Positions 8,172-56,244 of a stretch of 64,000 nt of DNA are shown one piece after another. Under the pieces are notes generated by a model, which was given only the letters and a program-made list of their open reading frames with translations, ran no database searches and was not told the origin of the DNA. The DNA comes from Propioniferax innocua (GTDB lineage: Bacteria; Actinomycetota; Actinomycetes; Propionibacteriales; Propionibacteriaceae): contig NZ_VFOR01000002.1 in NCBI RefSeq assembly GCF_006716235.1, positions 496,001-560,000 on the forward strand, given 5' to 3'. Each line of letters begins with the position of its first letter. Positions within the stretch are counted from its first letter, which is position 1. A program made the position numbers and the translations under genes.

Positions 8172-8239
8172 GGCCTCGGGTCTCAGGCGTTACCGGTAGC
8201 GTGACTCGCATCACCATCCGGCGCTCGAAGGAGGACGCG

Positions 8240-8971
8240 ATGAAGCTCGACATCACCACGTTGCCCGAGGGCTGGCGTCCTCTCGACGCAACCATCTGCG
8301 CCCGTTATCGAACCGGCAACTTCGCGACCGGACTCAGTTTCGTCCAACAGGTCGGCGAGCTGGCCGAGGAAGCAGATCATCACCCCGATGTGACGTTGAC
8401 GTTCCCCACCGTGGAGGTGCTGCTGATCAGCCATGACGTCGGCGAGGTCACCGACCGCGATCTCGCGCTCGCAGGCCGGATCACCCAGCTCGCGACCGAA
8501 CGCGGTCTCGAGCCCGATCTCGAACGCACCCACGAGGTGTCGGCGTGGGTTCCGGCATCGCCCGAAGACGTCTACGCATTGGTCTCGAATGTGCCCCGCA
8601 CCGGCGAGTGGAGCCCCACCTGCCGGAGTGCCGAATGGCACGATCCAGCGCAGACCGGCGTCGGCGCATTGTTCACCGGTCACAACGACGACGGAAAACG
8701 CCAGTGGACCTCTACCTCGAAGGTGACCGCCGCTGAACCTGGCGAGCGGTTCGAATGGGAGGTCAACGACGGCGCCACGCGCTGGGGCTACGTCCTCGCG
8801 CCGCACGAAGGCGGGACGCTGGTCACCCATACCTGGCACTTCACCGAGCGTGGGCACGCCTTCTTCATGGAGAAGTTCCCCAAGCCCTTGGTGGGCATGG
8901 CCAAACGCGAACAGGCTGCCCGTAAAGACATGCCGATCACTCTCACGCGAATCGCACGGCTCTTGGGGTGA
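8240..8971 (+). CDS. Fusion of pterin-4a-carbinolamine dehydratase-like and SRPBCC domains
   Basis: A 243-residue protein with AAGGAGG before ATG 8240. Residues 1-90 carry the full pterin-4a-carbinolamine dehydratase pattern: E-EAD-HHP at 43-49, F55, H65 and a following aspartate. The active-site histidine pair is therefore intact. From about residue 98 a SRPBCC (polyketide cyclase/START-like) domain begins at HEVSAWVPASPEDVYALVS and runs to the end, with the typical GEWSPTCRSAEW and GTLVTHTWHF strands. SRPBCC domains bind hydrophobic ligands. No aromatic amino acid hydroxylase, the usual partner of the dehydratase, is nearby. The joint function is unknown. Confidence 0.8.
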   Translation: MKLDITTLPEGWRPLDATICARYRTGNFATGLSFVQQVGELAEEADHHPDVTLTFPTVEVLLISHDVGEVTDRDLALAGRITQLATERGLEPDLERTHEVSAWVPASPEDVYALVSNVPRTGEWSPTCRSAEWHDPAQTGVGALFTGHNDDGKRQWTSTSKVTAAEPGERFEWEVNDGATRWGYVLAPHEGGTLVTHTWHFTERGHAFFMEKFPKPLVGMAKREQAARKDMPITLTRIARLLG

Positions 8972-8984
8972 CCCAACCGCACCA

Positions 8985-9038
8985 CGCTCCACTCCGGCGT
9001 TGCGCCGCATAGACACGGCACAACGCCGGAGTGGAGCG
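8985..9038. terminator. Perfect 18-bp hairpin between convergent genes
   Basis: cgctccactccggcgttg (8985-9002) pairs perfectly with 9021-9038 around an 18-base loop. It lies between the stops of the plus-strand SRPBCC fusion (8971) and the minus-strand cupin gene (9062), where a bidirectional terminator is expected. No T-tract follows. The loop core (gccgcatagacacggc) resembles the core of the two elements at 8033 and 8126, so it is also a member of that repeat family. Confidence 0.7.
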
Positions 9039-9061: not shown

Positions 9062-9598
9062 TCAGCGGGTCAACTCGTCGATCAAATGCGCGCCCAAACC
9101 AACCTTCTCATAGTGCTCCTTGCACACCTGGATGTAGTCGAACACGTCGAAATGTCCGATGCTCTCACCGTTCTCGTCGAGCCAGATCAGCGGGCCTTTG
9201 ACCACGAAGTGCACTCGCATGGGCTCATCAGACTCATACGCCACCAGTGTGTGTGAACCACCCGGCGTCTCATACACGAAAGACCCGGCTGTAGCGGTCC
9301 AGTCGTACTCCAGGTATGCCCATTTGCCGCTGATCGTCCACGCGAACACCTCCTGAGGGTGGTAGTGCCGATTGACGAGTCCGGCTTCCTTGGCCATGAG
9401 CACATCGGCCCACATATTTTGCTGGACGTTGATCCACAAGGGTCGAGAGAACGCCGTGTCGCTCAAGGGCGCGAAATAGCGCTCATCACTGAGATCGGCA
9501 GCATTTGGAATATGCACCTCGGGCAGTGACCCAGGCTTGGAGTAGTTCTCGATCGGCTTGATGCCCCGCCAGAACTCCGTTGTTGCTTCTTCGGGCAT
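9062..9598 (-). CDS. 2,4'-dihydroxyacetophenone dioxygenase-like cupin
   Basis: A 178-residue single-domain cupin. The 2,4'-dihydroxyacetophenone dioxygenase family cleaves the side chain to 4-hydroxybenzoate and formate using non-haem iron. The metal motif VNRHYHPQEVFAW supplies H78, H80 and E83, and GGSHTLVAYE supplies H116. ATG 9598 has AGGAGG just upstream. It is the last gene of the minus-strand operon and follows the amidohydrolase by 89 bases. With pobA in the same operon, the expected product 4-hydroxybenzoate would be used directly. Other cupins of this family act on different ketones, so the exact substrate is inferred. Confidence 0.7.
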   Translation of the reverse strand: MPEEATTEFWRGIKPIENYSKPGSLPEVHIPNAADLSDERYFAPLSDTAFSRPLWINVQQNMWADVLMAKEAGLVNRHYHPQEVFAWTISGKWAYLEYDWTATAGSFVYETPGGSHTLVAYESDEPMRVHFVVKGPLIWLDENGESIGHFDVFDYIQVCKEHYEKVGLGAHLIDELTR

Positions 9599-9687
9599 GT
9601 TCCCTCCTGTTGCCTTCTTCCTGTCTTCTGCGGGCTGTTCGCCGCCCTTGACTGTGTGATGGTGACTCGTCTTTGAGCGGTCATGCC

Positions 9688-10701
9688 TCACCTGGGCCCG
9701 GAAGCGATCTCTATCCCGAGAAGCTTTGCAGCCGAGCTGAGAACGATGGCAGCCTGCTGTGGCTCCACCGACGCCTCGACGAACTGCACAGGTGCGCGCT
9801 CGGCGAGATCGAACGGGAAGTCGGTGCCCATGAGCACATGTTCGGGCCCCACCTGCGCCACGAGTGAACGCAGCAGGTCGGCGTCGAAGACGGCGGTGTC
9901 GTAGTACAACTCGTCGATGTGGTTCCGTGGGTCATCATCGATCGTGTGTGCTTGCGGTTTACGGTCCCACCCCATGGAGAGACGCCCACGCAGGGAGGGA
10001 AGACAACCACCTCCATGCGCCAGACAGAGCGGAAAGCGATGCCGCGAGGTCACACCACCGAAGATCAAGCGGGACGCCGCCAACGCGGTCTCCATGGGGT
10101 AGCCGACGAGTTGTGGGAACCAAAAGTCTCCGGTGCGTTCAGGATTCGGCGAACCGCTCGGGTGCAGGAACGTGAAGACCCGACGCTCAGCGAGAAGCGC
10201 CCACAGTGGCTCGTTCACCTCGGCATCTAAGTCTTTGCCCGCGCCTTGAGATCCGATAGCGATACCGGCCATGCCGAGGTCGTCCAGACACCGACGCGCC
10301 TCATCGGCGGCCACATCCAGACCGACCGGCGCGGTCCCCAAGGCGACGAGCCTGTCCGGGGCGATGCCGACGAGTTCGGCCAACGCGTCATTCCCGCGAC
10401 GCACGATCTCGAGGGCCAGATCCGGATCCGGGCAGGACGAGGCCATGAGGAACGGCGGCAGCGACACCGCGTGGATATCCACACCCGCTGCGTCCATCGC
10501 CTTGAGTCGGCTCCGCACGTCGTACATCATGCGAGGCAGCGGAAGCTTGGCTGCCGGTCCGACGCCGCTCACGCGCGGGTCGAGCCACACTTTCGCATCA
10601 CTCAGCTCGCCGAGATCGCACAACCCCTCGTCCTGCAACCACTCGAGCACTGGCATCGGCATGGCGTGCGCGTGCACGTCGATGATCGGTCCGGGGTTCA
10701 T
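9688..10701 (-). CDS. ACMSD-like amidohydrolase (probable decarboxylase or hydratase)
   Basis: A 337-residue amidohydrolase-superfamily protein with the metal-binding start IIDVHAHAMPMPVLEWL. It has the usual LHPSGSPNP, LVGYPMETALAASRLIFGG, LCLAHGGGCLPSLRGR and GTDFPFD motifs of the aminocarboxymuconate-semialdehyde decarboxylase branch. That branch also contains orsellinate-type and resorcylate decarboxylases and 4-oxalomesaconate hydratase. Its start overlaps the ligB-like stop by four bases (ATGA), so it very likely acts on the ring-cleavage product. Removal of the remaining carboxylate from a carboxy-hydroxymuconate semialdehyde is one option. Hydration of 4-oxalomesaconate is another, but no other genes of that route are visible. 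Confidence 0.75.
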   Translation of the reverse strand: MNPGPIIDVHAHAMPMPVLEWLQDEGLCDLGELSDAKVWLDPRVSGVGPAAKLPLPRMMYDVRSRLKAMDAAGVDIHAVSLPPFLMASSCPDPDLALEIVRRGNDALAELVGIAPDRLVALGTAPVGLDVAADEARRCLDDLGMAGIAIGSQGAGKDLDAEVNEPLWALLAERRVFTFLHPSGSPNPERTGDFWFPQLVGYPMETALAASRLIFGGVTSRHRFPLCLAHGGGCLPSLRGRLSMGWDRKPQAHTIDDDPRNHIDELYYDTAVFDADLLRSLVAQVGPEHVLMGTDFPFDLAERAPVQFVEASVEPQQAAIVLSSAAKLLGIEIASGPR

Positions 10702-11606
10702 CGTGTGCCTCCCTGTCTCCCGTCGGCGGAGAAGATCGATGTCGCGGGACCATCCCCGATGGTCCCGTCCACCTCGTGTACAGCGACGCCCATGCCGTTG
10801 ATCCACTCATGAATCGGCTCATAGGCCACGGCAGTCGTGGTGATGGGTGGCGCGCCGGCCTCCGGCGACATGGCACCAGCGACAGTGACCCATGCGCGGA
10901 TCTCCCCGGTGCCGTTACCGGCCAGCATGAGTTCCTCATTGCCGATGTCGAGAAGGTCGGGTGGGCAGCCTTGCTCCAGTCGGCGCAGGAACCACAGGTC
11001 GAAGTCGATATCGATATCACCGACACGTGGCTCACCCACGAAATGGGACGGACCGCCGGCTCCCACCAGCAAAACACGTTCTAGGCCATCGTGAGCTCGG
11101 ATGGCCTGCCCCAACGCGATTCCGAAGTTCCAGCAGTGACGCAATGTCATCAACGGTTCGTAAGTACAGTTCATGATCATCGGAACCAGCGGCAATGACG
11201 CGTCGGGGCTGAGCGAGTGATAGACGGTCATGAAGCCGTGATCCACGGTCAGATCATGTGAGAGTCCGGGCATATGCCCACGAGCGATGGTCCCTGCGAG
11301 GATGTGTTCGGCGAGTTCGGGCGCCCCGGGAACCTGCACACGATCAATACCGAGCCACTTCTCCACCGGCCCGAGGTGAGTCTCTCCCAAACCGACGCTC
11401 ACCTGCGGCAGATTGTCGAGGAAGAAATTGGTGAAGTGCTCTCCAGAGACCATCACCACCGCTTGAGGCTCCAGTGCGAGGGCCCGGCTCTCGGCCTCGT
11501 GCAGGCCGGCGAAGAACCGTTCAGCCATCTCGGGCTGCGCCGATTCGGGATTCGCCGACATCATCGGCGCATGGGCGCTGCTGTAGGCCATCACGATGTC
11601 AGCCAT
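10698..11606 (-). CDS. ligB: Class III extradiol ring-cleavage dioxygenase, LigB-type catalytic subunit
   Basis: A 302-residue protein of the LigB family (protocatechuate 4,5-dioxygenase beta/gallate dioxygenase). H12 in SSAHAPMM, H57 in SGEHFTNFF and E235 in GNGTGEIRAW correspond to the iron ligands; H123 (VDHG) and H188 (GGPSHF) fit further conserved active-site histidines. ATG 11606 follows AGGAGG. It overlaps the LigA-like subunit by 16 bases, matching the two-subunit form of the enzyme. PobA upstream would supply protocatechuate. The cleavage position (4,5 or 2,3) cannot be read from sequence. Confidence 0.85.
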   Translation of the reverse strand: MADIVMAYSSAHAPMMSANPESAQPEMAERFFAGLHEAESRALALEPQAVVMVSGEHFTNFFLDNLPQVSVGLGETHLGPVEKWLGIDRVQVPGAPELAEHILAGTIARGHMPGLSHDLTVDHGFMTVYHSLSPDASLPLVPMIMNCTYEPLMTLRHCWNFGIALGQAIRAHDGLERVLLVGAGGPSHFVGEPRVGDIDIDFDLWFLRRLEQGCPPDLLDIGNEELMLAGNGTGEIRAWVTVAGAMSPEAGAPPITTTAVAYEPIHEWINGMGVAVHEVDGTIGDGPATSIFSADGRQGGTR

Positions 11607-11890
11607 CGGACCTCCTGGTTGTGACGCATGCGTTCGGCTTCACCTTCGGGGAAGAGCACAGCGTAATCAGCTCGTTTCCACCCCATCTGGCGGCAGAACG
11701 CGTTGATGAGCACCGGGTGGACGCCCAATTCGTACAGGGCTCCTACATCGGCGCGATCGAGTGCGGTGCGTTCGGCGTCGGTCAATTCGTAGCCGTCGGT
11801 CTCCACCTTGTCGGCGGGCCGATCGTTGTCGATCTTCTCCAGTTCACGGAGGTGGTCGAACAGGCATCGCTGCATCCAGTAACGACTCAT
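11591..11890 (-). CDS. ligA: LigA-like small subunit of extradiol dioxygenase
   Basis: A 99-residue LigA-type helical subunit. The region DRADVGALYELGVHPVLINAFCRQMGW matches the characteristic alpha-subunit core that caps the LigB active site in protocatechuate 4,5-dioxygenase. Its ATG overlaps the pobA stop (ATGA) and its end overlaps ligB, so hydroxylase and ring-cleavage enzyme are translated together. It is short compared with Sphingobium LigA (about 140 residues): the N-terminus is trimmed. Confidence 0.8.
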   Translation of the reverse strand: MSRYWMQRCLFDHLRELEKIDNDRPADKVETDGYELTDAERTALDRADVGALYELGVHPVLINAFCRQMGWKRADYAVLFPEGEAERMRHNQEVRWLTS

Positions 11891-13077
11891 GCCAAGGCCT
11901 TTCCGGCCCAGCCGGTGTAGGCGTCAGCGAGCCAAGCCCTTCCGTGGTCGGATTCCAGCAGCATCCGCAGCTCTCCGAGCGAGCGCTTGCGGTCGAAGCC
12001 ACTGTCATCAGCAGTGGTGTGCAGCATGGAGGTCATCCAGTAGGAGAAGTGCTGTGCCTTCCACACGCGGTCGAGGCAACGTCCGCTGTACTCGTCAAGC
12101 ATGGCGTCATCACCTGTTTCAGCCCAGCGCCCCAGCACATCCCCCAAGATGCGAACATCCTGTAGCGCAAGGTTCAGTCCCTTGGCCCCCGTGGGCGGCA
12201 CAGTGTGGGCAGCATCTCCGGCGAGGAAGAGCTTGCCCCAACGCATCGGTTCGGAGACGAAGCTGCGAAACGGCAGCACGACCTTCTCGGTGACAGGCCC
12301 CTCGTTGATCTCGAACCCGTTGAAATTCAATCGAGAACGGAAGGTCTCCCAGATCTGCTCGTCGCTCCAGTCCTCGGCGCGCTCGCGCGGATCGCATTGG
12401 AAGTAGAGCCGCTGGAGGGTCTCGGTGCGTTGACTGACGAGCGCGAATCCAGCCTCGGAACGGGAGTAGATGAGTTCCTCATGGCTGGGTGGGGTCTCCA
12501 CCAGGACGCCGAACCAGGCAAAGGGGTATTCGCGAAAGTGTGCGGTGCGGTGCTGCTCGGGAATCGCGCCGCGACAGACGCTACGTGAGCCATCGGCACC
12601 AACCAGCAGGTCGCACTCGATCTCCACCGTGCCACCGCTGTCCGGGTCGGAGTAGGTGATGAGAGGTCGGGATTCCACGTCGGAGACCTGTGCCGGTCCG
12701 ACGCCGTACCGAATATCGCCCCCGTCCGCCTCACGACGGTCAGCGAGGTCGATGAACACGTCGGTCTGGGGGTACAGGTAGGTCGACGCGCCGACCAGCT
12801 CCTGGAAGTCGATGGGATGCCGCTCCCCCTCGATCCTGATGTCGATGCCGTCATGACGGTCACCATCGGTGAGGATGCGGTCGCTGACCCCGTCGAGCAG
12901 CAGGTCGGCCGACCCCTGCTCCAGGATCCCGGCCCGATGGGTGTTCTCGATCTCGTGGCGCGTTCGCGCCTCGACGACGATGTGGTCGATGCCCTGCTGT
13001 GCCAGAAGATGCGAGAGCATCAAGCCTGCCGGGCCTCCTCCGACAATTCCGATACGAGTTCGTTCACGCTTGGGCAC
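11887..13077 (-). CDS. pobA: 4-hydroxybenzoate 3-monooxygenase
   Basis: A 396-residue class A flavoprotein monooxygenase that converts 4-hydroxybenzoate, NAD(P)H and O2 to protocatechuate. The FAD-binding GIVGGGPAGLML is at residues 9-20, DLLVGADGSRS lies mid-protein, and FLAGDAAHTVPPTGAKGLNLA is the second FAD motif. The length and the TYLYPQTDVFIDLAD segment are characteristic of PobA rather than of salicylate-type hydroxylases. It starts with GTG inside the end of the transporter gene (14-base overlap). It is the central step of the operon, joining both peripheral routes to ring cleavage. Confidence 0.9.
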   Translation of the reverse strand: MPKRERTRIGIVGGGPAGLMLSHLLAQQGIDHIVVEARTRHEIENTHRAGILEQGSADLLLDGVSDRILTDGDRHDGIDIRIEGERHPIDFQELVGASTYLYPQTDVFIDLADRREADGGDIRYGVGPAQVSDVESRPLITYSDPDSGGTVEIECDLLVGADGSRSVCRGAIPEQHRTAHFREYPFAWFGVLVETPPSHEELIYSRSEAGFALVSQRTETLQRLYFQCDPRERAEDWSDEQIWETFRSRLNFNGFEINEGPVTEKVVLPFRSFVSEPMRWGKLFLAGDAAHTVPPTGAKGLNLALQDVRILGDVLGRWAETGDDAMLDEYSGRCLDRVWKAQHFSYWMTSMLHTTADDSGFDRKRSLGELRMLLESDHGRAWLADAYTGWAGKALA

Positions 13078-14332
13078 GGGCAGCCTCCTGTTGCGATTCG
13101 GTGTTCTTGAGAACCTGTTCGTGGGGCACCATCACAATGGCCAGAAGCCCCAGCACCGCCACAGCGGCGAAGAAGTAGAAGCCCCACGGGTAGGCGATCC
13201 CCGCAGTCACAAGAGCACCGGTGACCAGCGGTCCCACGATGGCGCCCAGACGTCCCACTGCCGACGCCAGCCCGATCGCAGTGTTGCGCACCTCGGGGGC
13301 GAAGGTGTGGGCGATGTAGGCGTAGATCAACACCATCGCGCTGAACACGAAGATGCCGGTGATGAAAATGACGAGATTCACCAACCACGGGCTCTTCATC
13401 TGCACCGACAGCAGCGCGAGCAATGCTGCGGAGACGCCGAACCACAGCAGGATCGTGGGCTTGACGCCGCGTCGGTCTGCGATGCTTCCGGCGAGCAGGA
13501 GCCCAGCGACCGCGCCGGCATTGAGCACAAACAGCATGGTGATGGAGCTGGCGACGCCGTATCCGGCTTCACGCATCAGCTGCGGCAGCCATGTGTTGAG
13601 GCCGTAGACCAGCAGCAGCCCCATGAAGGACCCGATCCAGACACCGACGATCGCCTTCCGGTGGCCGGGCTGGAAGAGACTCGCCCGGGCAGCGTCCTCC
13701 TTCTCGCGGCTCGCCAGGAAGGCTTCGGATTCAGGAAGCTTGAACCACATCACCGGGACGACGAGCAAACCAATGACGCCGCCGAGGTAGAAAAGCAGCT
13801 GCCAGTCGGGAACCACGGCCAGCGCCACGAGCGAGGCAACGACCGCACCGGCGTGGTATCCGGTCATGGTCAAGGTGCTGGAGTGCGACCGTTTGGATTC
13901 GGGCAGATGCTCCGCCATCAGCGTCAACGCGGTGGGCATACATGCGCCGAGTCCAAGGCCTGCGATGAGCCGGAAGACCGCGAAGATCTCGACCGAACCA
14001 GCCAGCGGAATCACCAACGTGAACACCGAGAACAGGAAGATCGAGCCGATCAGCACGAGGCGTCGTCCGATCCGGTCGGCGATGGGCCCCACAGCCGCCG
14101 CACCAATGGCGACGCCGATCAACGACACCGTGGCCACCAGTGTCGCGCCACCCTTGTCGAACCCCATGTGCCCGTCCTTGATGAGGGTGGGAATGATCGC
14201 TCCCAAGGCGACCAGATCGAAACCTTCGAGCATCACGGTGACCCAGCACAGGACACTCGGCCACGCGGACGCGCCTGCTCGTTGTTGTGTGTTTTCCGAG
14301 CCCGTAGCTCGGGAGGTGAATGAAGACATCAT
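13064..14332 (-). CDS. MFS aromatic acid:H+ symporter (AAHS family, PcaK-like)
   Basis: A 422-residue, 12-helix major facilitator. The DGHMGFDKGGATLVATVS and GPIADRIGRR segments are the loop 2-3 signature of aromatic acid/H+ symporters (PcaK, BenK). GLGACMPTALTLMAEHLPESKR is the TM4-5 region. ATG 14332 is preceded by AAGGA; an ATG directly follows it, so the start may be three bases later. Placed between the aldehyde dehydrogenase and pobA, it most likely imports 4-hydroxybenzoate, protocatechuate or a mandelate-like acid. Confidence 0.87.
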   Translation of the reverse strand: MMSSFTSRATGSENTQQRAGASAWPSVLCWVTVMLEGFDLVALGAIIPTLIKDGHMGFDKGGATLVATVSLIGVAIGAAAVGPIADRIGRRLVLIGSIFLFSVFTLVIPLAGSVEIFAVFRLIAGLGLGACMPTALTLMAEHLPESKRSHSSTLTMTGYHAGAVVASLVALAVVPDWQLLFYLGGVIGLLVVPVMWFKLPESEAFLASREKEDAARASLFQPGHRKAIVGVWIGSFMGLLLVYGLNTWLPQLMREAGYGVASSITMLFVLNAGAVAGLLLAGSIADRRGVKPTILLWFGVSAALLALLSVQMKSPWLVNLVIFITGIFVFSAMVLIYAYIAHTFAPEVRNTAIGLASAVGRLGAIVGPLVTGALVTAGIAYPWGFYFFAAVAVLGLLAIVMVPHEQVLKNTESQQEAARAQA

Positions 14333-14360
14333 CGTCCTTTCCAGCTCGTGCTTGGGCAGG

Positions 14361-15815
14361 TCAGAAGGGATAATCGGCAATCTGCGGACGCATGGTCAGC
14401 CACTGCACCTCGGTGAACGCTTCGATATCGGCCGCAGCGCCACCGAATCGGCTGCCATTGCCTGAGTCCTTGACACCGCCGAAGGGGACGTTGGGTTCGT
14501 CGGAGACGGTCTGCTCATTGATGTGGATCTTCCCCGAATCCACCAGGTCGGCGAGCTCCATCGCCATGCCAACCTCACCGAGAATGCCGACCGAGAGTCC
14601 GTACTCGGAGTCGTTCACCAGTTCCGCGGCTTCCTCGATGGATGCGAAGGTCACCACCGGGGCGACCGGGCCGAAGATCTCCTCGCGCCATGCCGGGGAA
14701 TCCTTGTCACAGGAGATGACCGTGGGCGGATAGAAGCGTCCAGCGGGTTCGCCACCGCCGTGGACGGTGTCCCCGGCGTCCCTGGCTGCGGTGACGATGC
14801 GATGCACGTGCTCACGTTGTTTGTCGTCGATGATCGGGCCGAGAGCCACCTCGTCGGTGTAGGGGTTTCCGACCGGCAAGTGGCGGGCCTTCTCGGTCAA
14901 CGCAGCGATGTATTCTTCCGCAATCGACTCGTGCACAAGGTGGCGTCCGGTGGTCATACAGATCTGGCCCTGGTGGAGCCACGATCCGAAGGCGCCGGCC
15001 GAGGCGGCTTTGGCAACATCCGCTCCCGGCAGGACGACGAGGGCATTGTTGCCACCCAGCTCAAGATGAACACGCTTCAAGGCACCCGACGCAGCAGCGC
15101 CGACATGGCGTCCAGCACCGGTTGAACCGGTGAACGAGACCACTGCCACCTCCGGGGCGGTCACCACGGCCTTGCCAACCTCGGCATCCCCCGGGAGCAC
15201 ATGCAGGAGCCCTTCGGGCAGGCCGGCTTCCTCGAAGATCCGCGCGATGGTGACCCCACCAGAGACAGCCGTGCGCGGATCAGGCTTGAGCACCACGGCA
15301 TTGCCGAGCGCGAGGGCCGGTGCCACCGAGCGGATGGCGAGCAACAGCGGGAAGTTGAACGGGGCGATGACCGTCACCACACCTGCCGGACGTCTGCGGG
15401 ACATCGACCAGCGATCCTCGTTGGAGGCGAGCATCTCACCGGTCGGATGCGTCGGCAACGCCGCAGCCTCCCAGCATGCATCAGCCGTCTGGGCCACCTC
15501 GAGTTCCGCCTTCGCGCGCACTGAGCCCGCTTCCCGGATGAGCCACTCCTGCACCTCACCGGCGCGCTCCTGCCACAGCTGGGCAGCCCGGCGCAGCACT
15601 TGCGCCCGCACAGAGGGAGCGGCTTTACCCCAATCACGCTGGGCGGCGGCTGCTGCCGTCGAGGAAGCAAGGGCCTGGTTCGCATCTGCCATTCCGACTG
15701 CACCCAGAGTCTCACCAGTCGCTGCCTCGACCACGGTGTGCGGAGAAGCCGCACCGACACACCAGTCACCGTTGAAGATCTTCTCGTTCCAGATGTTCTG
15801 TGTCAGCAGGCTCAT
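14361..15815 (-). CDS. Benzaldehyde-type NAD(P)-dependent aldehyde dehydrogenase
   Basis: A 484-residue aldehyde dehydrogenase with N154 (IAPFNFPLLL), general base E252 (HLELGGNN) and nucleophile C286 (QGQICMTTGR). It lies directly downstream of benzoylformate decarboxylase, so the likely reaction is oxidation of (4-hydroxy)benzaldehyde to (4-hydroxy)benzoate, the MdlD role. AAGGAG precedes ATG 15815. Vanillin dehydrogenases share this subfamily, so related aldehydes are possible substrates. Confidence 0.88.
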   Translation of the reverse strand: MSLLTQNIWNEKIFNGDWCVGAASPHTVVEAATGETLGAVGMADANQALASSTAAAAAQRDWGKAAPSVRAQVLRRAAQLWQERAGEVQEWLIREAGSVRAKAELEVAQTADACWEAAALPTHPTGEMLASNEDRWSMSRRRPAGVVTVIAPFNFPLLLAIRSVAPALALGNAVVLKPDPRTAVSGGVTIARIFEEAGLPEGLLHVLPGDAEVGKAVVTAPEVAVVSFTGSTGAGRHVGAAASGALKRVHLELGGNNALVVLPGADVAKAASAGAFGSWLHQGQICMTTGRHLVHESIAEEYIAALTEKARHLPVGNPYTDEVALGPIIDDKQREHVHRIVTAARDAGDTVHGGGEPAGRFYPPTVISCDKDSPAWREEIFGPVAPVVTFASIEEAAELVNDSEYGLSVGILGEVGMAMELADLVDSGKIHINEQTVSDEPNVPFGGVKDSGNGSRFGGAAADIEAFTEVQWLTMRPQIADYPF

Positions 15816-15889
15816 GAGTACTCCTTCGTCTATGGCCCGAATCGTTGCGCGGGCAGCAGTCGTGCCGGTCAGGTCAGAAATCAGAGGGA

Positions 15890-17476
15890 TCAGGGTTGAG
15901 TGAGCGCAGTGTCGATCTGCAGGAGGCGGGGCCCCTCGGGGCGAGGCACAGCAAGCAGTTCGTCAAGGGCTTCGGCGTCGGGGAGATGGAGGGCAGGCAG
16001 GTCGTAACCGGCGGCGATCCTGGTGAGATCCATGCCCGGAACATCGAGTCCGGGAACCTCACCCACATCGAGCAGGTCAGCGAACCATCGAAGGGCCCCG
16101 TAGGTGCCATTGCGGAGGATCACGATGTCCACATCGACGCCCAGGTTCACCGCAGACCACAGAGCTGGCAGGGCGTAATTCGCCGACCCATCACCGATGA
16201 CACCGACGACGTGGCGGCCGGTGCCAAGGTCACGGTGAGCCAGTGCTGCGCCGACCGCCGCAGGAAGCCCGAATCCCAACGCGCCTGAGGCCGGGAAGAA
16301 GTACGAGCCTTGGTGACGCAGATCCATCTGCTTCCAGAAGGAGCTGTTCGTGGAGGTGGATTCCACGATATAAGCAGTATCAGTGGGCATGCGCTTGCGC
16401 AGTGCCGCGAAGACTTCCTCGGGGTGGGTTCCACCCTCGGCACAGGAAGGCTCATCGGGGATCGAATGGTTGTGGCTCGTGTGCGTGGAGGGCAGGGCGC
16501 CGAGCAGTGCCTCGATGACCGCGCGGGGTTCAGCGACGAAGGCTTCGCCCATGGGTGCCCGGGCTGCGGCGGCAAGGTCGTCGGTGACCTGCAGCAGACG
16601 GGTTCCCTCGGCAAGAAGGTCACCGGGGACGTTCTGGTGGTAGCGGAACACCGGAGCCCCGAGAACCACGACGAGATCGTACGGTGCCAAGGCCTGGGAG
16701 ATGGGAGCGATACCTGCGGGCAGCACACCACGAAACAGTTCGTGGCGGTTCGGAAACGGAAGCCGGAACAGCGAAGGCGCGGCCCACACAGGAGAGCCAA
16801 GACGCTCGGCGAGTTGGACAGCCCGATCATTGAGTCCATCGGTGTCGATGTCTCCACCCAACACAAGGACTGGACGCTTGGCCGCCTGCACCAGGTCCAC
16901 CACGCGACGTATCTGCCCAGCGGTGGGTTCCCGCCCCACAGTCACGCTTCGCCGGGACGCCAGACGAGCGTTGTCGTTGCATTCCACGTCCCAGTCGTCG
17001 TAGGGGACCGAGAGGTAGGTGGGCATGCGTCGGCCCACCGCGGTGTGGATGGCTTCGGCCAAGGCACGCGGAACGTCCTGCGCATCGGCCGGCTCGGCGG
17101 CCCAGTCCACCAGCGGCTTGGCCAGCATCGTGGCGTCGACGTTTGCCAGCATTCCCTCCATGCCGATGACTCCACGGACCTGCTGGCCGGCCGAGATCAC
17201 CAACGGTGTCCGGGAATAGCGCGCATTGAGCAATGCCCCCATGGCATTTCCTGTACCTGAACCAGCGTGCAGGTTGCAGAAGGCAGGTCGACCGGTGACC
17301 TGCGCCCATGCATCAGCCATGCCCACAACAACGCCTTCGTGGAGGCCGAGCACGTATTCAATGCTCCCGGGGAGGTCAACGAGGAAGGGAAGCTCATTGG
17401 ATCCGGGATTCCCGAAGATCCGGGTGATGCCGTTCTCGACGAGAACTTGATGCGCAGTGGTGCGCACATCAGTCAT
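15890..17476 (-). CDS. mdlC: Benzoylformate decarboxylase (ThDP-dependent)
   Basis: A 528-residue thiamine-diphosphate enzyme, exactly the usual length. It decarboxylates benzoylformate, probably the 4-hydroxy form here, to the aldehyde. Key residues sit at the numbering of the Pseudomonas putida enzyme: S26 (GNPGSNELPF), E47 (GLHEGVVVGMAD), H70 (CNLHAG) and H280 (VFRYHQN). The ThDP motif GDGSANY ... NGTYGALRWFA is present. It is the first gene of the eight-gene operon, with AGGAGG before ATG 17476, divergent from a LysR gene. No mandelate dehydrogenase or racemase is in the window, so the substrate must enter by a gene elsewhere. Confidence 0.93.
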   Translation of the reverse strand: MTDVRTTAHQVLVENGITRIFGNPGSNELPFLVDLPGSIEYVLGLHEGVVVGMADAWAQVTGRPAFCNLHAGSGTGNAMGALLNARYSRTPLVISAGQQVRGVIGMEGMLANVDATMLAKPLVDWAAEPADAQDVPRALAEAIHTAVGRRMPTYLSVPYDDWDVECNDNARLASRRSVTVGREPTAGQIRRVVDLVQAAKRPVLVLGGDIDTDGLNDRAVQLAERLGSPVWAAPSLFRLPFPNRHELFRGVLPAGIAPISQALAPYDLVVVLGAPVFRYHQNVPGDLLAEGTRLLQVTDDLAAAARAPMGEAFVAEPRAVIEALLGALPSTHTSHNHSIPDEPSCAEGGTHPEEVFAALRKRMPTDTAYIVESTSTNSSFWKQMDLRHQGSYFFPASGALGFGLPAAVGAALAHRDLGTGRHVVGVIGDGSANYALPALWSAVNLGVDVDIVILRNGTYGALRWFADLLDVGEVPGLDVPGMDLTRIAAGYDLPALHLPDAEALDELLAVPRPEGPRLLQIDTALTQP

Positions 17477-17585: not shown

Positions 17586-18527
17586 ATGCCGAAGGTTGAT
17601 CTGAATTTGGTACGGACGTTCGTCACGGTCTTCGAGACCCGCTCGGTAACGGCAGCGGCACGCAGTCTCCATTTGACCCAGCCCACAGTGACGCACAGCC
17701 TAAACCGGCTCCGACGCCAGCTCGAGGACGACCTGTTCGTGCGCAGCCCGCAGGGCGTAACGCCGACTGCAGTAGCGGTGCGCGCATATCCACGGTTCAT
17801 CGAAGCTCTCAACGCGATCGATAGCGTGTTCCTGCAGTCGGCTCCATTCCAACCGGCCACGTCGACATCGACGTTCCGCGTCGGGATGTCCGACGCCGGC
17901 GAGGTTTCGGTGCTACCACCACTGGCAGCGGCCATTACCGAGTCAGCACCCCACGCGAGTATCGAGGTGGCTCCGCTGGACATCGACCTGGTCGAACGTC
18001 AACTCACGCACGGCGAACTGGACTGTTTCGTCTCGAGCGCACAATTCCACTCACCCTTGATCAACCGCGACGAGCTGTTTCAGGAGCGATACGTGGCGCT
18101 CGTGGCTGATGAGCACCCCCGCATCGGCACGTCAGTCACCGCGCATGCCCTGGACGCCGAACCGCACATCGCCGTCGTCGGAGTGACCGGTCACCAAGAG
18201 CCGGCTCGCCTCCAACGTGAACGCGACGTACACATTCGCGTTCAGGTTCCGCGGTTCACCGCTGTCCCTCACCTGGTGGCCCAGAGTGACGCGGTGGCGA
18301 TCCTCCCCCACTACATCGCAGAGGGCTTCACCGATGGCGGAAGTCTGCGCTGGGTCGATCTGCCGTGGCCCGTCGCACCCATCAAGGTCTGCCTCCACGC
18401 ACGCCATCCCCACTCACGTTCCCCCGAGCAGGCATGGTTCATCGACACTGCGCGTGAAGCGCTGCGTCGGCGCTATGGCGATGGAAGCACCCCGGCCACC
18501 GAGCCTGAGGAGCCACCCACCCATTGA
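17586..18527 (+). CDS. LysR-family transcriptional regulator
   Basis: A 313-residue regulator. The N-terminal winged HTH (about residues 5-62) includes VTAAARSLHLTQPTVTHSLNRLRRQLEDDLFVRSP in pieces typical of LysR. The rest is a LysR substrate-binding domain starting near FRVGMSDAGE. It is divergent from the aromatic operon and shares its control region, so it most likely regulates that operon in response to mandelate-, benzoate- or protocatechuate-like inducers. The C-terminal 25 residues are a proline/glutamate-rich tail outside the domain. Confidence 0.88.
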   Translation: MPKVDLNLVRTFVTVFETRSVTAAARSLHLTQPTVTHSLNRLRRQLEDDLFVRSPQGVTPTAVAVRAYPRFIEALNAIDSVFLQSAPFQPATSTSTFRVGMSDAGEVSVLPPLAAAITESAPHASIEVAPLDIDLVERQLTHGELDCFVSSAQFHSPLINRDELFQERYVALVADEHPRIGTSVTAHALDAEPHIAVVGVTGHQEPARLQRERDVHIRVQVPRFTAVPHLVAQSDAVAILPHYIAEGFTDGGSLRWVDLPWPVAPIKVCLHARHPHSRSPEQAWFIDTAREALRRRYGDGSTPATEPEEPPTH

Positions 18528-43054: not shown

Positions 43055-44548
43055 TCATTCTTCCGACGATCCGACGCTTTCCACCAGCGGCAGTCGCCCG
43101 GTGGCGATGGTCCCGGGCTCGCCGGAGGTGAAGACGAGTTCTCCGCCGTGGCGTTCGATGATCCGTTCGCAGATGATCAGTCCGATCCCGGCGCCATCCT
43201 GTTTGGTGCTGAAGGCCTGATCGGTGGGTTCGGCCAGGCCGCGTCCCCGGTCGGCCACCGAGAAACAGGCCCAGTCGCCTTCACGGAAGCAGGTCAGCTC
43301 CACCACCGGCGGTGGCGTCAGTCCTTCTGCGATCGCCTCGGACACCTCGTCCACGGCGTTGAAGCACAGGTTGATGACCACCTGCCCGATCAGGATCTGA
43401 TCCACCTTCACCGGTAACGGTTCCTCGCTGAGGTCCGCCTGCAGCTCGATGCCCTTCTCCCTGGCTCGCAACTGTGCGAAGTACAGGGCATCGGCCACGA
43501 CGTCGTCGAGGTCCTCCACCGCCATCGAGGTCTCGATGCGTTGCACGTAACGCTTGACGCTGCTCACGATCTGCGCCGACCGCGTCAACTGCCGTGCGGC
43601 GAGATCCAGCCCGTACTCGAAATCCTCGGTACTGAGATTCCCCGACGCATGCCGCGCCTGCAGACCCATCAACGAGTTGCGGGCCGCAGCCAGAGGCTGC
43701 CCGAGTTCGTGCGCGATCGTCATCGCCATGTCTCCCATGGCGTTGTACCTGCTCATGTACTGCAGCCGCGCCTGCTGGTACTCGTTGTGCCGCGCGAGCT
43801 CCTCGCGTTCAGTCACATCACGGAAAGCCGCCAGGCGCGACTGGATGCCGTCGTGGCGCACCACCTCGATGTCCACCGACAACCACCGCGTCCCGTCCTC
43901 GGCGTCGACCTCGAACGTGATCTCCACCGGATCACCCGGATGTGACAGGTGCCCGGAGACGACCTCTCCATCCAGCGGCAATGAGGGCGTGGCCAGCGCA
44001 TCCAGCCGCTGCCCGGCCGCCTCCTCGGCCGTCGTGCCCAGCAACCGCGCCGCGAAATCCGAGATGTCCTGGACGCGATTCTCCTCGTCCAGCAACGCGA
44101 TCCCCGCCGACGCCGACACCATCAACCTCTGCAGATACCCCTCGGCCCGATCCAGCTCCGCGCGCAGATCGTCCTCGGGCGTCACACCTCGGAAGACCAC
44201 CATGACCACCGGCCCATCGCGGAAGTCGAGCCGCTTGGCCACCGCATCGGTCAAGAACACCTCTCCGTTCTTGGCGCGATACTTCCACCGACGCCGGCTC
44301 TCACCGCGCACCACGGCTTCCTGCAGCCATGCGACGCCGACATCGCGCCGATACCGCTGATCGGGGCTGCTCATGTGGTGCGCCTTCAGCGGACGCAGCT
44401 CCTCGAGACGAAACCCGAACATCCGGCAGGCGGCCTCGTTCGCCCACAGGATGTTCTTCGACGCGGCCTCGTGGATCAGGATGCCCGAATCGAGCCCCTG
44501 CACCATGGCCCTGAAGTCGGGGCCGGACGGGAAGATCTCTCCGTTCAT
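43055..44548 (-). CDS. PAS-PAS sensor histidine kinase of the iac locus
   Basis: A 497-residue soluble kinase. Two PAS domains (about 15-125 and 140-250) precede the phosphoacceptor H280 in MTIAHELGQPLAAARNSL, a FixL/TodS/DctB-type H box. The ATPase domain has VINLCFNAVDE, VADRGRGLAEP and GAGIGLIICERI. It has no membrane helices, so it would sense a cytoplasmic ligand such as the aromatic substrate. It starts 19 bases after the iacF-like stop as the last gene of the operon. The only FixJ-type partner nearby is at 50427-51128, six genes upstream. It may play the part of IacS, reported as a two-component regulator of iac genes in Paraburkholderia (from memory). Confidence 0.88.
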   Translation of the reverse strand: MNGEIFPSGPDFRAMVQGLDSGILIHEAASKNILWANEAACRMFGFRLEELRPLKAHHMSSPDQRYRRDVGVAWLQEAVVRGESRRRWKYRAKNGEVFLTDAVAKRLDFRDGPVVMVVFRGVTPEDDLRAELDRAEGYLQRLMVSASAGIALLDEENRVQDISDFAARLLGTTAEEAAGQRLDALATPSLPLDGEVVSGHLSHPGDPVEITFEVDAEDGTRWLSVDIEVVRHDGIQSRLAAFRDVTEREELARHNEYQQARLQYMSRYNAMGDMAMTIAHELGQPLAAARNSLMGLQARHASGNLSTEDFEYGLDLAARQLTRSAQIVSSVKRYVQRIETSMAVEDLDDVVADALYFAQLRAREKGIELQADLSEEPLPVKVDQILIGQVVINLCFNAVDEVSEAIAEGLTPPPVVELTCFREGDWACFSVADRGRGLAEPTDQAFSTKQDGAGIGLIICERIIERHGGELVFTSGEPGTIATGRLPLVESVGSSEE

Positions 44549-44567
44549 CACCCGGGACACTTCACCA

Positions 44568-45518
44568 TCAGAAGTAGTCGAGCACCAGACGCTCGCCCTT
44601 GCACCGCGAGACGCACACCGCCATCTGGTCACCCGCGGCGCGTTCGGCCTTGGTCAGCACATTGTCACGATGCTCCGGTTCACCCTCCAGCACCGTCATG
44701 ATGCAGGTGCCGCAGATCCCTTCCTCGCAGGAGGTGTCCACCTCGACGCCGTTCTCCTGCAGCACCTCCACGATCGAGCGGTCGGCGGGGATCTGATAGG
44801 TCTCGTCCTCGAACTCCACCTCGAAGGCACTGTTCTCCGACGCATCGGGCTGCTCCGCGGCGTGGAAGTTCTCCTCATGGATCTCGTCCTCGGCCACGAA
44901 CTCCCTGCCGACCTCACGCACCACATCCATGAACGGCCCCGGGCCACACATGTAGATGTGCGAACCCTCCGGCATCTCGGCGAAATACCGACGCAGCAGA
45001 CCGGCATGTTCACCCACGCCCACCCCCAGATGGGTGTGCAGATGTTCGGGGCACCGTTCCTGCAACAACGGCAGGAATGCCGCATCCTCGGTGCTGCGCG
45101 CGAAGTAGTGCAGCTCGAACGAATGTCCGTGCACGTGCATCCACCGCGCCAGACTCAGCATCGGCGTGATGCCGATGCCCGCGCCGATCAGCACATGGTG
45201 CTTGGCCCGCTCATCCATCCCCATCAGGTTGCGGGGTGCACTGATCTGGAGGGTGTCCCCCACCTTCAGTTCATGCATGGCGGCCGAACCGCCGCGGCCG
45301 GCTTCCTCCCGCTTGACCGCGACGGTGTACGACTCCGCATCATCGGGTGTGCTGCACAGCGAGTACTGACGCGTGATCGCGGTGGGCCCCACCACGTCGA
45401 CGTGGGCCCCGGCCTGGTACACGCCCAAGGGCTTGCCGTCGACGCGTTGCAGCCGGATCGACTTGACCGTGGGGGTCTCGTCGACGATCTCGACCACGCG
45501 AACATCGATCATGGACAT
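44568..45518 (-). CDS. iacF: Ferredoxin-NAD(P)H reductase component of the iac Rieske dioxygenase
   Basis: A 316-residue reductase of the phthalate-dioxygenase/VanB type. It has a flavin domain with RQYSLCSTPDD and GRGGSAAMHELKVGD, a nucleotide domain with LIGAGIGITPMLS and YMCGPGPFMD, and a C-terminal plant-type [2Fe-2S] domain with C264, C269, C272 and C302. It would pass electrons from NAD(P)H to the IacCD oxygenase. It follows the SDR gene by 79 bases. The iac assignment is from its neighbours. Confidence 0.88.
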   Translation of the reverse strand: MSMIDVRVVEIVDETPTVKSIRLQRVDGKPLGVYQAGAHVDVVGPTAITRQYSLCSTPDDAESYTVAVKREEAGRGGSAAMHELKVGDTLQISAPRNLMGMDERAKHHVLIGAGIGITPMLSLARWMHVHGHSFELHYFARSTEDAAFLPLLQERCPEHLHTHLGVGVGEHAGLLRRYFAEMPEGSHIYMCGPGPFMDVVREVGREFVAEDEIHEENFHAAEQPDASENSAFEVEFEDETYQIPADRSIVEVLQENGVEVDTSCEEGICGTCIMTVLEGEPEHRDNVLTKAERAAGDQMAVCVSRCKGERLVLDYF

Positions 45519-45597
45519 GGCAGTTCCCCTTCCACCGCTCCACTGCGGTGTCTTCGTTGTTCCCGGCCCCGTGGTCGATCACGGGACCACATCTGCG

Positions 45598-46335
45598 TCA
45601 CCGCAGGTACAGGCCCCCGTTGATGTCCCAGCACGCACCGGTCACGAACGACGCCCGGTCACTCGCCAGAAGCGCGACGGTGTCGGCGATGAACTCCGGA
45701 TCACCGAGATGCCCCACGGGGATCCCGGCCATCACAGCCTCCAACTTCTCCGGCGGCACGGTGCGGTGGACGATCGGCAGGTCGTGCGGCCCCGGCGAGA
45801 TCGAGTTCACCGTGACACCCTTCGACGCCAGTTCACGCGCGAAGATCTTCGTCACCGTCAGGATCGCGCCCTTCGACGCCGCGTAATGCCCGCCGGTGGC
45901 GGTTCCCCCGTTCTGGCCGGCCAGTGACGCCATGTTGACGATGCGTCCGAAACCGGCGTCGGCCATGGCCTGTCCGAACACCTGGCAGCCGAGGAAGGCA
46001 CTGGAGGTGTTGATCCCCAACACCGAGGTGAACTCCTGCGCAGGCAGCGTCATCAGGTCGGCGGCCTGCGTGATGGCGGCGTTGTTGACCAGGATGGTCG
46101 GCTCGCCCCACCGCTCGCGCACCATGGCGAGCGCGGCCTCGAAGTCGTCCCTGCTGCTGACATCCAGACGTGCACCGGCTGCTTCACCCTCGCCCTCGAG
46201 CCGTCCCGCCAGGTCGGTGGCGGCGTCGGCGTCGATGTCGGTGACCAGCACGTGCCGCCCATCGGCGGCCAGCCGGCGGCAGATGGCCTCACCCATGCCG
46301 CCGGCTGCACCTGTGACGACCGCGATCCCGCTCAC
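45598..46335 (-). CDS. iacE: Short-chain dehydrogenase/reductase of the iac locus
   Basis: A 245-residue classical SDR: TGAAGGMGEAICRRL (cofactor loop), NNAA motif in ILVNNAAIT, catalytic serine in NMASLAG, and YAASK (Y-x-x-x-K). GTG start overlaps the iacD stop by four bases. In iac clusters the IacE reductase acts on oxidised indole-acetate intermediates (established for the family). A cis-diol dehydrogenase role would be the alternative if the Rieske enzyme had another substrate. Confidence 0.82.
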   Translation of the reverse strand: MSGIAVVTGAAGGMGEAICRRLAADGRHVLVTDIDADAATDLAGRLEGEGEAAGARLDVSSRDDFEAALAMVRERWGEPTILVNNAAITQAADLMTLPAQEFTSVLGINTSSAFLGCQVFGQAMADAGFGRIVNMASLAGQNGGTATGGHYAASKGAILTVTKIFARELASKGVTVNSISPGPHDLPIVHRTVPPEKLEAVMAGIPVGHLGDPEFIADTVALLASDRASFVTGACWDINGGLYLR

Positions 46336-46823
46336 AGCAGGTATCCCGACGCGGTCACGGCCTCTTCACTGTTGATCAGACGCACAACCTTCAGCTTGAT
46401 GCGGTCACCACCCTCATCGAGCACGATGGTGTGCGTCAGCTCCGCCCCGAGGGTGTCGAAGTGGTTGCGCTTGTAGGCCGAAAGGATCTGCGCCGACTTC
46501 AGCGTCACCTCACTGTCACTGACCGATTCCACGGTGAACCGCGAAACGGTGCGCACCGTGCGCGCTGCAGCCACAGCGGAGGGAGAGAAGCCCTGCATCA
46601 TGCGTTCGACGCGCATCTCACGCATCCGCTTGTCGTCGTAGACCATGTTGAGCGAGCTGGCGAAGTCCTCGGTCTCCGGATCGATCGGCACCACGTAGAT
46701 GCCGTCGTCGGTGAAGAGCTCCTGCCACTCGGGGTAGTTCTTGTCGTCGAGCAGCTTGGCCTCGGACCAGATCAAGGAGATCGCCCGCACCACCCGCTCA
46801 TCGGTGAACAGAATTTCCGACAT
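46332..46823 (-). CDS. iacD: Ring-hydroxylating dioxygenase small (beta) subunit
   Basis: A 163-residue NTF2-fold subunit: LIWSEAKLLDDKNYPEWQELFTDDGIYVVP is the characteristic beta-subunit start, and MVYDDKRMREMRVERM the central stretch. It forms the structural ring of alpha3beta3 oxygenases. ATG 46823 shares a base with the alpha-subunit stop codon, so the two are made in step. Confidence 0.88.
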   Translation of the reverse strand: MSEILFTDERVVRAISLIWSEAKLLDDKNYPEWQELFTDDGIYVVPIDPETEDFASSLNMVYDDKRMREMRVERMMQGFSPSAVAAARTVRTVSRFTVESVSDSEVTLKSAQILSAYKRNHFDTLGAELTHTIVLDEGGDRIKLKVVRLINSEEAVTASGYLL

Positions 46824-48106
46824 CACGCATCGCCCTTCTCGTCGGCTGCCATCATCTTCTTCCACTGCGCATACGCCTCACGCATGCCGGTCTCATCGGT
46901 CACGTGGGAGGTGGGCCAGCCCTCGGGGCTGGTGACCTCACGGTTGAGCCCACGGTTCACCAGAATCGGCATCTCCGGATCTGCGTGCGCGCCCTGCTGG
47001 ACGCGGTCCCAGCCCTCGGCATCATCGGGCGAGCCGAACCCGAAGGGCCCCTGGAAGTGCTCGTGGATGCGCAGGCGCTCCTGGTTGACGATCTCCGGGC
47101 CGCCATCCATGCCGATGGCCATGTGCCAGATCTCGGTCTCGTCGACCGAGATCGGGATCAGCACCCGGAAGAACGCCGAGGACATGCCGATGTTCGGGAA
47201 CAGATTCAGATTGAACCCACAGCCGTGCATCGACCGCATGATGCGACGGATCTCGGCGTCGGAGTACTCGCCCTGCATCGCATCCACAAGGTGCTGGAAA
47301 CGCGGCTGGATCTCCTCGGTGCCGTCGTCCTCGTCGAGGTCCATGTGTGCCTTGGCCATGATCGCGACGCTGTGGCCGTTGCCCAGCGCGTGCGTCACGG
47401 CCTCGGGGTCGTTCATGAACGACATCATGTCGGCGGTCTCGGCGTCGACCGAGGCCATCCACGACTTGTGCACCATCGGGAAGTGGTAGCCGTCGGTGGT
47501 GTTCTCCAGCTGGATCTTCCAGTTGCCGCGGAAACGGAACTTGTGAACGCCGATCACCTTGGGCGCATAGCCGTTGGTCTGTTTGAAGAAGCGCTCCATC
47601 CAGATCTTGGCGTCACCGAGGAAATCCTCGAGCGGCTCGGCGTCCTCGTTGAAGGTCGCGAAGATCATGCCCAGGTGGCTCTCGGTACGTAGCTTGCGCA
47701 GCGGGAAGTCGGCCTTCTCCACCACGTCCTCGTAGCCCTCGGGGTACGGGATGCCGCGCAGACGCCCGTCGAGCGCATACGACCAGTTGTGGTAGGGGCA
47801 GGTGAAGCCGTTGGCCTTACCCTTCGACACATCGCACACGGTGGCGCCACGATGGCGGCAACGGTTGAGCAGGGTGTTGAAGTTGCCCTTGCGGTCGCGG
47901 ACCACGATGACCGGCTGCTTGCCGATCTGCATGGTCTTGAACGACCCGGCCTCGGGGATCTCGCTCTCGTGAGCCACCCAGACCCACGACTTGTAGAAGA
48001 TCTTCTCCATCTCCAGATCGAACAGTTCCGGGTCTGTGTAGAGCCGACCGGCCACGCGGTCGGTCCCGGCCAGATCCGCGTGGCGTGCGGCGTCTGCGGT
48101 TTCCAT
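46823..48106 (-). CDS. iacC: Rieske ring-hydroxylating dioxygenase large (alpha) subunit
   Basis: A 427-residue alpha subunit. The Rieske cluster is formed by C83-R-H85 and C103-PY-H106. The mononuclear iron site has D205, H208 and H213 in NTTDGYHFPMVHKSW, with its third ligand expected in the C-terminal part. AAGGAG lies before ATG 48106. On its own it could belong to a benzoate- or anthranilate-type enzyme; the company of iacA-, iacB-, iacH- and iacI-like genes makes the IAA pathway the best reading, where the Rieske enzyme attacks the ring on the way to catechol. Confidence 0.88.
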   Translation of the reverse strand: METADAARHADLAGTDRVAGRLYTDPELFDLEMEKIFYKSWVWVAHESEIPEAGSFKTMQIGKQPVIVVRDRKGNFNTLLNRCRHRGATVCDVSKGKANGFTCPYHNWSYALDGRLRGIPYPEGYEDVVEKADFPLRKLRTESHLGMIFATFNEDAEPLEDFLGDAKIWMERFFKQTNGYAPKVIGVHKFRFRGNWKIQLENTTDGYHFPMVHKSWMASVDAETADMMSFMNDPEAVTHALGNGHSVAIMAKAHMDLDEDDGTEEIQPRFQHLVDAMQGEYSDAEIRRIMRSMHGCGFNLNLFPNIGMSSAFFRVLIPISVDETEIWHMAIGMDGGPEIVNQERLRIHEHFQGPFGFGSPDDAEGWDRVQQGAHADPEMPILVNRGLNREVTSPEGWPTSHVTDETGMREAYAQWKKMMAADEKGDA

Positions 48107-48217
48107 GGTGCTCCTTGCTTGGTGGGTCCATGTCGGCCCGGGATCGGGCCGACCACGGATCGATGAGGGTCGTTTCGTTGGACTGGGACGCCGTTGGATC
48201 AGGCGCCGGGGGCCGGT

Positions 48218-48733: not shown

Positions 48734-48738
48734 CAGCC

Positions 48739-49110: not shown

Positions 49111-49163
49111 GTCTTTTCCTTTCACGACAGCGTGATGTGTGCGGACAGTTCGTGAGGTTCGGG

Positions 49164-50333: not shown

Positions 50334-50426
50334 CGGCATCCCTCCAGAAGGCCATCGGCTTTGATGGGTGATGCCGAAAAATCTAGGCGCGCTCCCCCGC
50401 CCCTCGGTATTGGAACTTCTCCACCC

Positions 50427-51128: not shown

Positions 51129-51129
51129 C

Positions 51130-51426: not shown

Positions 51427-51494
51427 GGTTCGCTCCCTCGTGGTGTTCTCGGTGCTGTCGATCGTCTGCATGGTTCTCGCGTCCTTTCCCGGCG

Positions 51495-52790: not shown

Positions 52791-52800
52791 CGTGCCTCCT

Positions 52801-53076: not shown

Positions 53077-53149
53077 CTGCGCGTCCGCATGCTGAAGGAG
53101 CTCGCTTTCGGATCAGGGCTGCCGCCCTGACCCATGAGGTGTGCTGGCA

Positions 53150-56123: not shown

Positions 56124-56244
56124 AGCGCACTCCTTTGTGGTTCCAGACCCCGATGAGCACGGCCACTCCAAGTGCGGAGGGCGGCACTGCCGAGTCCGTG
56201 CCACACAAGCTAGAGAGCCCGAACGCGCTGCGGAATCGGTGATT

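Follow-up and report, generated by a model that had tools for sequence, protein, structure and literature searches.

A candidate protocatechuate 2,3-cleavage module joined to two aryl-C2 entry routes in an operon of Propioniferax innocua

The 64,000-nucleotide stretch analysed here (the window) lies on contig C2 of the Propioniferax innocua genome (2.79 Mb, 98.98% complete as listed) and carries an operon whose probable role is to remove the two-carbon side chains of lignin-like phenols, yielding 4-hydroxybenzoate, and to open the ring afterwards by a route that has seldom been described. Eight co-directional minus-strand genes run from position 17476 to 9062, with open frames, tight spacing and several overlapping ends, which bears out the single operon proposed in a first-pass annotation of this DNA. 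That annotation also assigned the ring step to a LigAB-type protocatechuate 4,5-dioxygenase, which is probably a misreading. With reasonable confidence, we favour an aryl-C2 funnel that leads into 2,3-cleavage of protocatechuate and drains through 2-hydroxymuconate semialdehyde (HMS) into a catechol meta line.

In the proposed scheme, an MFS protein would import aromatic acids. A benzoylformate decarboxylase (BFD) would convert (4-hydroxy)benzoylformate to the aldehyde, which an aldehyde dehydrogenase (ALDH) would take on to 4-hydroxybenzoate, and a cupin would form 4-hydroxybenzoate and formate from 2,4'-dihydroxyacetophenone. PobA would turn 4-hydroxybenzoate into protocatechuate, to be cut between C2 and C3 by a LigA/LigB-like pair. 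The resulting 5-carboxy-2-hydroxymuconate-6-semialdehyde would then be decarboxylated to HMS by an amidohydrolase related to 2-amino-3-carboxymuconate-semialdehyde decarboxylase (ACMSD), and HMS would be degraded to pyruvate and acetyl-CoA by a catechol meta line encoded on contigs C1 and C2.

The assignment of the ring step turns on the amidohydrolase gene (9688..10701, minus strand), which went unnamed in the first-pass finding and whose ATG overlaps the stop codon of ligB. Thirty-five solved relatives were found at an E-value of 0.001, the 13 best being ACMSDs without exception (best 8e-41); weaker relatives include gamma-resorcylate decarboxylase (1e-24) and a biphenyl meta-cleavage-compound hydrolase (8e-6) that we take to be LigY. 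A fold search with the predicted model (pLDDT 68.6) likewise placed ACMSD first (5.5e-16), with 2,6-dihydroxybenzoate decarboxylase a close second (1.8e-14). Residues His10, His12, His180, His229, Arg240 and Asp294 are invariant across seven relatives, and the last four of these pair with the ACMSD sequence in alignment. OpaD, an ACMSD relative, decarboxylates 3-carboxy-HMS after extradiol cleavage, and PraH, another relative, is cited as a 5-carboxy-HMS decarboxylase (PMC6362003). On chemical grounds, only 2,3-cleavage of protocatechuate, as opposed to 4,5-cleavage, should leave the carboxylate beta to the aldehyde. Since a class III dioxygenase with an ACMSD-family decarboxylase reproduces the PraA/PraH pattern of Paenibacillus, the ring step fits 2,3- rather than 4,5-cleavage.

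The amidohydrolase-2 superfamily also includes LigI and LigJ, so that the pair might be an ordinary protocatechuate 4,5-dioxygenase, with a partner that resembles LigJ or LigI and serves as a hydratase or hydrolase in the same route. This we consider unlikely, on evidence that, for the later enzymes of that route, covers LigI, LigJ and LigK. None of the 35 solved relatives is a molecule named LigI or LigJ, the best matches being decarboxylases, and the genome encodes no second protein similar to the amidohydrolase (E-value 0.001). The single RraA-like gene of the genome, presumably of the LigK family, could be counted in favour of a 4,5 route, but its open frame of 161 aa is short for a LigK aldolase. 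The two-subunit LigA/LigB form and the occurrence of LigAB (1bou) among the Foldseek matches also speak for 4,5-cleavage, against which the LigB-like protein falls far under the cut-offs of all ten NCBIfam models that it matches (best 108 bits versus 290).

The LigB-like protein (10698..11606, minus strand), the proposed catalytic subunit of a protocatechuate 2,3-dioxygenase, is a class III extradiol enzyme (PF02900, 102.6 bits) in which His12, His57, His188 and Glu235 are invariant across seven aligned rows. Its predicted model (pLDDT 73.7) matches DesB, MhpB and LigB about equally; given the middling quality of this model and of the decarboxylase model, the fold results are supporting only. 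The adjoining 99-aa gene (11591..11890, minus strand) was assigned as the small subunit from its position, size and relatives, the latter being 45-66% identical. It has no Pfam or NCBIfam match, scores 13.8 bits against PF07746, whose cut-off is 25.3 (searches at this threshold also give matches in four of 14 control genomes), and gives 12-23 bits against five small genes adjoining other LigB-type genes. We regard it as weakly LigA-like. A pair 38% and 47% identical to that of the window lies near a PobA gene (45%) on the Rhodococcus opacus plasmid pRho-VOC14-C342 (locus L042, 7735-8882); its small subunit is absent from the listed gene table, and a BFD is found on the same plasmid about 32 kb from the pair.

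Across 198 Propionibacteriaceae genomes, with no more than 12 candidates per genome scored and a strong match defined as an E-value below 1e-140, a strong LigB match was found in 11, the source genome included. Two further genomes gave only weak matches near 1e-21, and G014 holds a second, weak copy. In every one of the 11 genomes the LigA-like, LigB-like and decarboxylase genes are contiguous and in the same order. This triad adjoins a protocatechuate supplier in seven of them, and the suppliers are of three unrelated kinds. PobA lies beside it in four (the source genome, G186, G187 and G189); in G009 the neighbour is a FAD hydroxylase with a phenol-hydroxylase dimerisation domain, which we take to be MobA-like; and in G014 and G100 it is a quinate module comprising shikimate dehydrogenase together with what are presumably AroQ and a QuiC-like dehydratase. 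That the dioxygenase acts on some other catechol, with PobA a coincidental neighbour, would agree with the roughly equal distance of LigB from MhpB, DesB and LigB in sequence as well as fold, and with the four triad genomes in which no supplier was seen. The recurrence of three unrelated protocatechuate-producing modules makes it very improbable, and the least probable of the alternatives weighed here.

A scan of named genomes returned six loci, from Granulicoccus, Enemella (two), Raineyella and two metagenome-assembled genomes labelled Propionibacteriaceae or Propionibacterium, the named genera all belonging to Propionibacteriaceae; its two patterns were narrow, and it may have overlooked distant relatives. 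In the ten other triad genomes, the stretches of 9.5-19 kb surrounding the triad contain neither a cupin nor a BFD match at an E-value of 1e-6, so that, within this set, the union of cupin and BFD with the triad is seen only in the source genome.

The favoured scheme of 2,3-cleavage followed by decarboxylation calls for a lower line that accepts HMS, and the presence of such a line is apparent from the sequence, as are the gene families, their order and the conserved triad. Contig C1 carries an HMS dehydrogenase, an oxalocrotonate-decarboxylase-type gene, a catechol 2,3-dioxygenase and a ferredoxin-like gene, and contig C2 carries a hydratase, an acetaldehyde dehydrogenase and an aldolase. Scores over cut-off were obtained for the HMS dehydrogenase (TIGR03216, 761 bits versus 693), the hydroxyoxovalerate aldolase (TIGR03217, 482 over 286) and the acylating acetaldehyde dehydrogenase (TIGR03215, 424 over 282). 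With no more than seven candidates per genome scored, an HMS dehydrogenase over the TIGR03216 cut-off was present in ten of the 198 family genomes, nine of which are among the 11 triad genomes (Fisher p 5e-13, phylogeny ignored).

The catechol 2,3-dioxygenase on C1 also opens another possibility, namely that the substrate of the amidohydrolase is an aromatic acid, decarboxylated for example to catechol, instead of a ring-fission product, and that the catechol enzyme makes the cut. The solved relatives do include gamma-resorcylate and 5-carboxyvanillate decarboxylases, and 2,6-dihydroxybenzoate decarboxylase comes close behind ACMSD by fold. ACMSD is nevertheless much the better match by sequence (by the E-values given above for it and gamma-resorcylate decarboxylase), the conserved overlap with ligB would serve no purpose, and the known aryl decarboxylases with this fold have ortho-hydroxy acids as substrates, which protocatechuate is not. 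We therefore hold this possibility to be highly unlikely. In G100 a broken catechol 2,3-dioxygenase gene (locus L089, 4267-4820, contig C46) adjoins open HMS dehydrogenase and oxalocrotonate-decarboxylase-type genes; its use as proof by natural experiment was rejected, because G100 also has another, over-cut-off copy at a different locus.

Several observations weigh against the favoured scheme. No enzyme of known structure is a close relative of the LigB-like protein, and no ACMSD-type decarboxylase match was found in the 16.8-kb stretch around the R. opacus pair. The decarboxylase frame is broken in G187 (locus L074, 8044-8688), and no queried supplier lies near the triad in G101, G102, G103 and G188, the G103 contig being 9.5 kb long. 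In the lower line, the oxalocrotonate-decarboxylase-type gene (216 bits, under an equivalog cut-off of 351) and the pentadienoate hydratase (234, under one of 409) are placed by family and context, and the triad genomes G102 and G103 gave no HMS dehydrogenase at an E-value of 1e-150. A search for catechol 2,3-dioxygenase in the 11 triad genomes and one further genome found it over cut-off in all 12; it adjoins the HMS dehydrogenase in nine of ten stretches from other genomes, one copy being broken, and does so in the source genome too. The co-occurrence of triad and HMS dehydrogenase may therefore reflect catechol use. Finally, the substrates, including those assigned to BFD and ALDH, the decarboxylation step, the link to the lower line and the position of the cut are inferred.

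PobA and the side-chain enzymes of the operon are well supported. PobA (11887..13077, minus strand; PobA/PraI type) exceeds the cut-off of NF006091 (501 bits versus 351) but not that of TIGR02360 (403 versus 539), and its best solved relative is 8weq (E-value 8e-164). The first gene of the operon (15890..17476, minus strand) encodes BFD, a thiamine diphosphate (ThDP) enzyme also known as MdlC, which passes the equivalog cut-off of NF005485 (633 bits versus 493) and has the benzoylformate decarboxylase 6qsi as its best solved relative (8e-168). It is followed by ALDH (14361..15815, minus strand; PF00171), of the benzaldehyde/4-hydroxybenzaldehyde type, whose best solved relative is the 4-hydroxybenzaldehyde dehydrogenase 9jw2 (7e-101) and which is 49% identical to a Pseudomonas putida S12 gene annotated as benzaldehyde dehydrogenase. 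A role of the two in forming 4-hydroxybenzoate from (4-hydroxy)benzoylformate is thus a well-supported prediction. Next comes the MFS transporter (13064..14332, minus strand; longest frame from 14380), of the aromatic acid/H+ symport family by TIGR00895, where it scores 272 bits, under the cut-off of 419.

The first-pass annotation described this branch as mandelate-type and proposed a search for mandelate dehydrogenase elsewhere in the genome. With the FMN_dh profile, no FMN-type mandelate dehydrogenase was found genome-wide, in a search that did not extend to GlcD-type oxidases or other kinds of mandelate dehydrogenase. The profile gave four partial matches, three under the cut-off of 24.9 and one over it (34.1 bits, part of the profile), and at the search threshold it also matches in all 14 control genomes. 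The one match over cut-off is an IMP-dehydrogenase-family protein (PF00478, 129 bits, versus 40 for FMN_dh), and the branch should accordingly be called benzoylformate-type. The further proposal that a class III dioxygenase serves here without the intradiol 3,4 route agrees with our search, in which no intradiol dioxygenase (pcaGH, PF00775) was matched in the 2.79-Mb genome; four of 14 control genomes do match.

The last gene of the operon (9062..9598, minus strand; longest frame from 9691) encodes a cupin of the 2,4'-dihydroxyacetophenone dioxygenase (DAD) type. Alignment with the DAD structure 4p9g gives 123 identical residues among 180 aligned (E-value 7e-85). Of 20 active-site residues named in the excerpts of PMC4219425, 17 are kept, with the offset between the 4p9g chain and the published numbering inferred from the iron histidines. 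Those kept include the three iron histidines, Tyr93, Glu108, Trp61 and Asp63, with the two proposed binders of the phenol hydroxyl among them, and the three positions that differ are Phe43, Val47 and Met156. An operon with two aryl-C2 entries, for an alpha-ketol via the cupin and for an alpha-keto acid via BFD, is thus well supported by these similarities. Because BFD, ALDH, PobA and the DAD-type cupin are each well supported, the first-pass proposal that two side-chain routes converge on 4-hydroxybenzoate and continue through PobA holds.

DAD-type cupins 64-66% identical to that of the window occur on plasmids of Ensifer sp. PDNC004 (L046) and Sulfitobacter sp. DSM 110093 (L047), adjoining a different ThDP enzyme, an aldehyde dehydrogenase and an SDR protein. 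The ThDP enzymes are not the BFD seen here: that of Sulfitobacter is only 26% identical over 502 residues, and that of Ensifer matches in two short pieces only (26% and 42%). The gene types resemble those of the window all the same, and these neighbourhoods indicate that DAD in company with a ThDP enzyme recurs.

Among described systems, the pra pathway of Paenibacillus sp. JJ-1b shares a PobA-type hydroxylase, an extradiol dioxygenase, an ACMSD-related decarboxylase and an HMS line to pyruvate (PMC6362003, PMC7814577, PMC12455638). It differs in that those excerpts treat praA as one gene, whereas a LigA-like small subunit accompanies the dioxygenase here. The HMS line is at two other loci in P. 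innocua, one of them with a catechol 2,3-dioxygenase. A LysR regulator also stands here in place of PraR, which is of the IclR type. In Pseudomonas sp. PTH10, opaC and opaD likewise encode an extradiol dioxygenase and an ACMSD-related decarboxylase that acts after it to yield HMS, but the substrate is 2,3-dihydroxybenzoate and the dioxygenase another one (PMC6362003). The DAD of Alcaligenes sp. 4HAP shares the iron ligands and proposed phenol-binding residues and differs in operon context (PMC4219425; structure 4p9g).

The upstream half itself, part of a combination that the first-pass annotation held to be unusual for an actinobacterium, has actinobacterial counterparts. As described in the excerpts of PMC9811514, the 4-hydroxybenzoylformate cluster of Rhodococcus jostii RHA1 uses BFD and an aldehyde dehydrogenase (vdh) on aryl-C2 lignin fragments; it differs in having a glycolate oxidase, and RHA1 has pcaHG (PMC7814577), unlike the source genome. 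The Corynebacterium occultum plasmid pCOCCU carries LysR-BFD-MFS-ALDH, also with a divergent LysR gene and with a BFD 52% identical to ours. Identity is only 31-35% for its LysR, MFS and ALDH proteins. An annotated alpha-hydroxy acid oxidase lies in the vicinity, and none of the genes of the 17.6-kb stretch is annotated as a ring-cleavage dioxygenase.

The LysR-type gene of the window (17586..18527, plus strand; PF03466/PF00126) is divergent from the operon and probably encodes its regulator. In G186-G189, the four g35 genomes, relatives of 35-39% identity adjoin the triad, and in C. occultum one of 34% identity adjoins BFD. True starts likely differ from the longest frames for the amidohydrolase (10701), the cupin (9598) and the MFS protein (14332). 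A ninth operon gene, the minus-strand frame 8183-9016 favoured by codon score, was rejected, since the plus-strand frame there encodes a pterin dehydratase/polyketide-cyclase protein. Elsewhere in the window, a second oxygenase cluster (43055-57528) contains Rieske oxygenase alpha and beta subunits, a reductase, an SDR protein, an HsaA-like monooxygenase and an HsaB-like flavin reductase, together with an amidase, TRAP transporter genes and a PAS-kinase/response-regulator pair. Its oxygenase matches are under their equivalog cut-offs; as a guess, catechol for the C1 meta line could come from this cluster.

In the literature searched, which covered few subscription papers, we found neither the triad described nor protocatechuate 2,3-cleavage reported for Propionibacteriaceae, and no paper that named both DAD and benzoylformate decarboxylase. 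The family, protocatechuate, dioxygenase and meta-cleavage appeared jointly only in a phenanthrene metagenome study, and the excerpts of PMC12728593 and PMC13406360 and the outline of PMC12997858 held nothing further on the 2,3-cleavage route. We rate the candidate Pra-like ring opening with a LigA-like subunit as a variation on known systems, and the aryl-C2 entries are already known.

The Paenibacillus pra cluster, the one example of protocatechuate 2,3-cleavage in the excerpts consulted, has been called the best studied (PMC12455638), and praA has been used to make 2,5-pyridinedicarboxylate from lignin (PMC7814577). If our reading is true, a second, actinobacterial, two-subunit version would be a new enzyme for that conversion, and would provide new relatives on which to test what determines where class III dioxygenases cut the ring. 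It would also correct the reading of the triad as a protocatechuate 4,5-dioxygenase with an unexplained amidohydrolase. For the Propionibacteriaceae, we lean towards the view that a two-subunit protocatechuate 2,3-dioxygenase and an ACMSD-type decarboxylase form a plug-in ring-opening module joined to the protocatechuate supplier available in each genome, and that in P. innocua this module may be combined with a double aryl-C2 entry, leading the protocatechuate branch into the catechol meta line.

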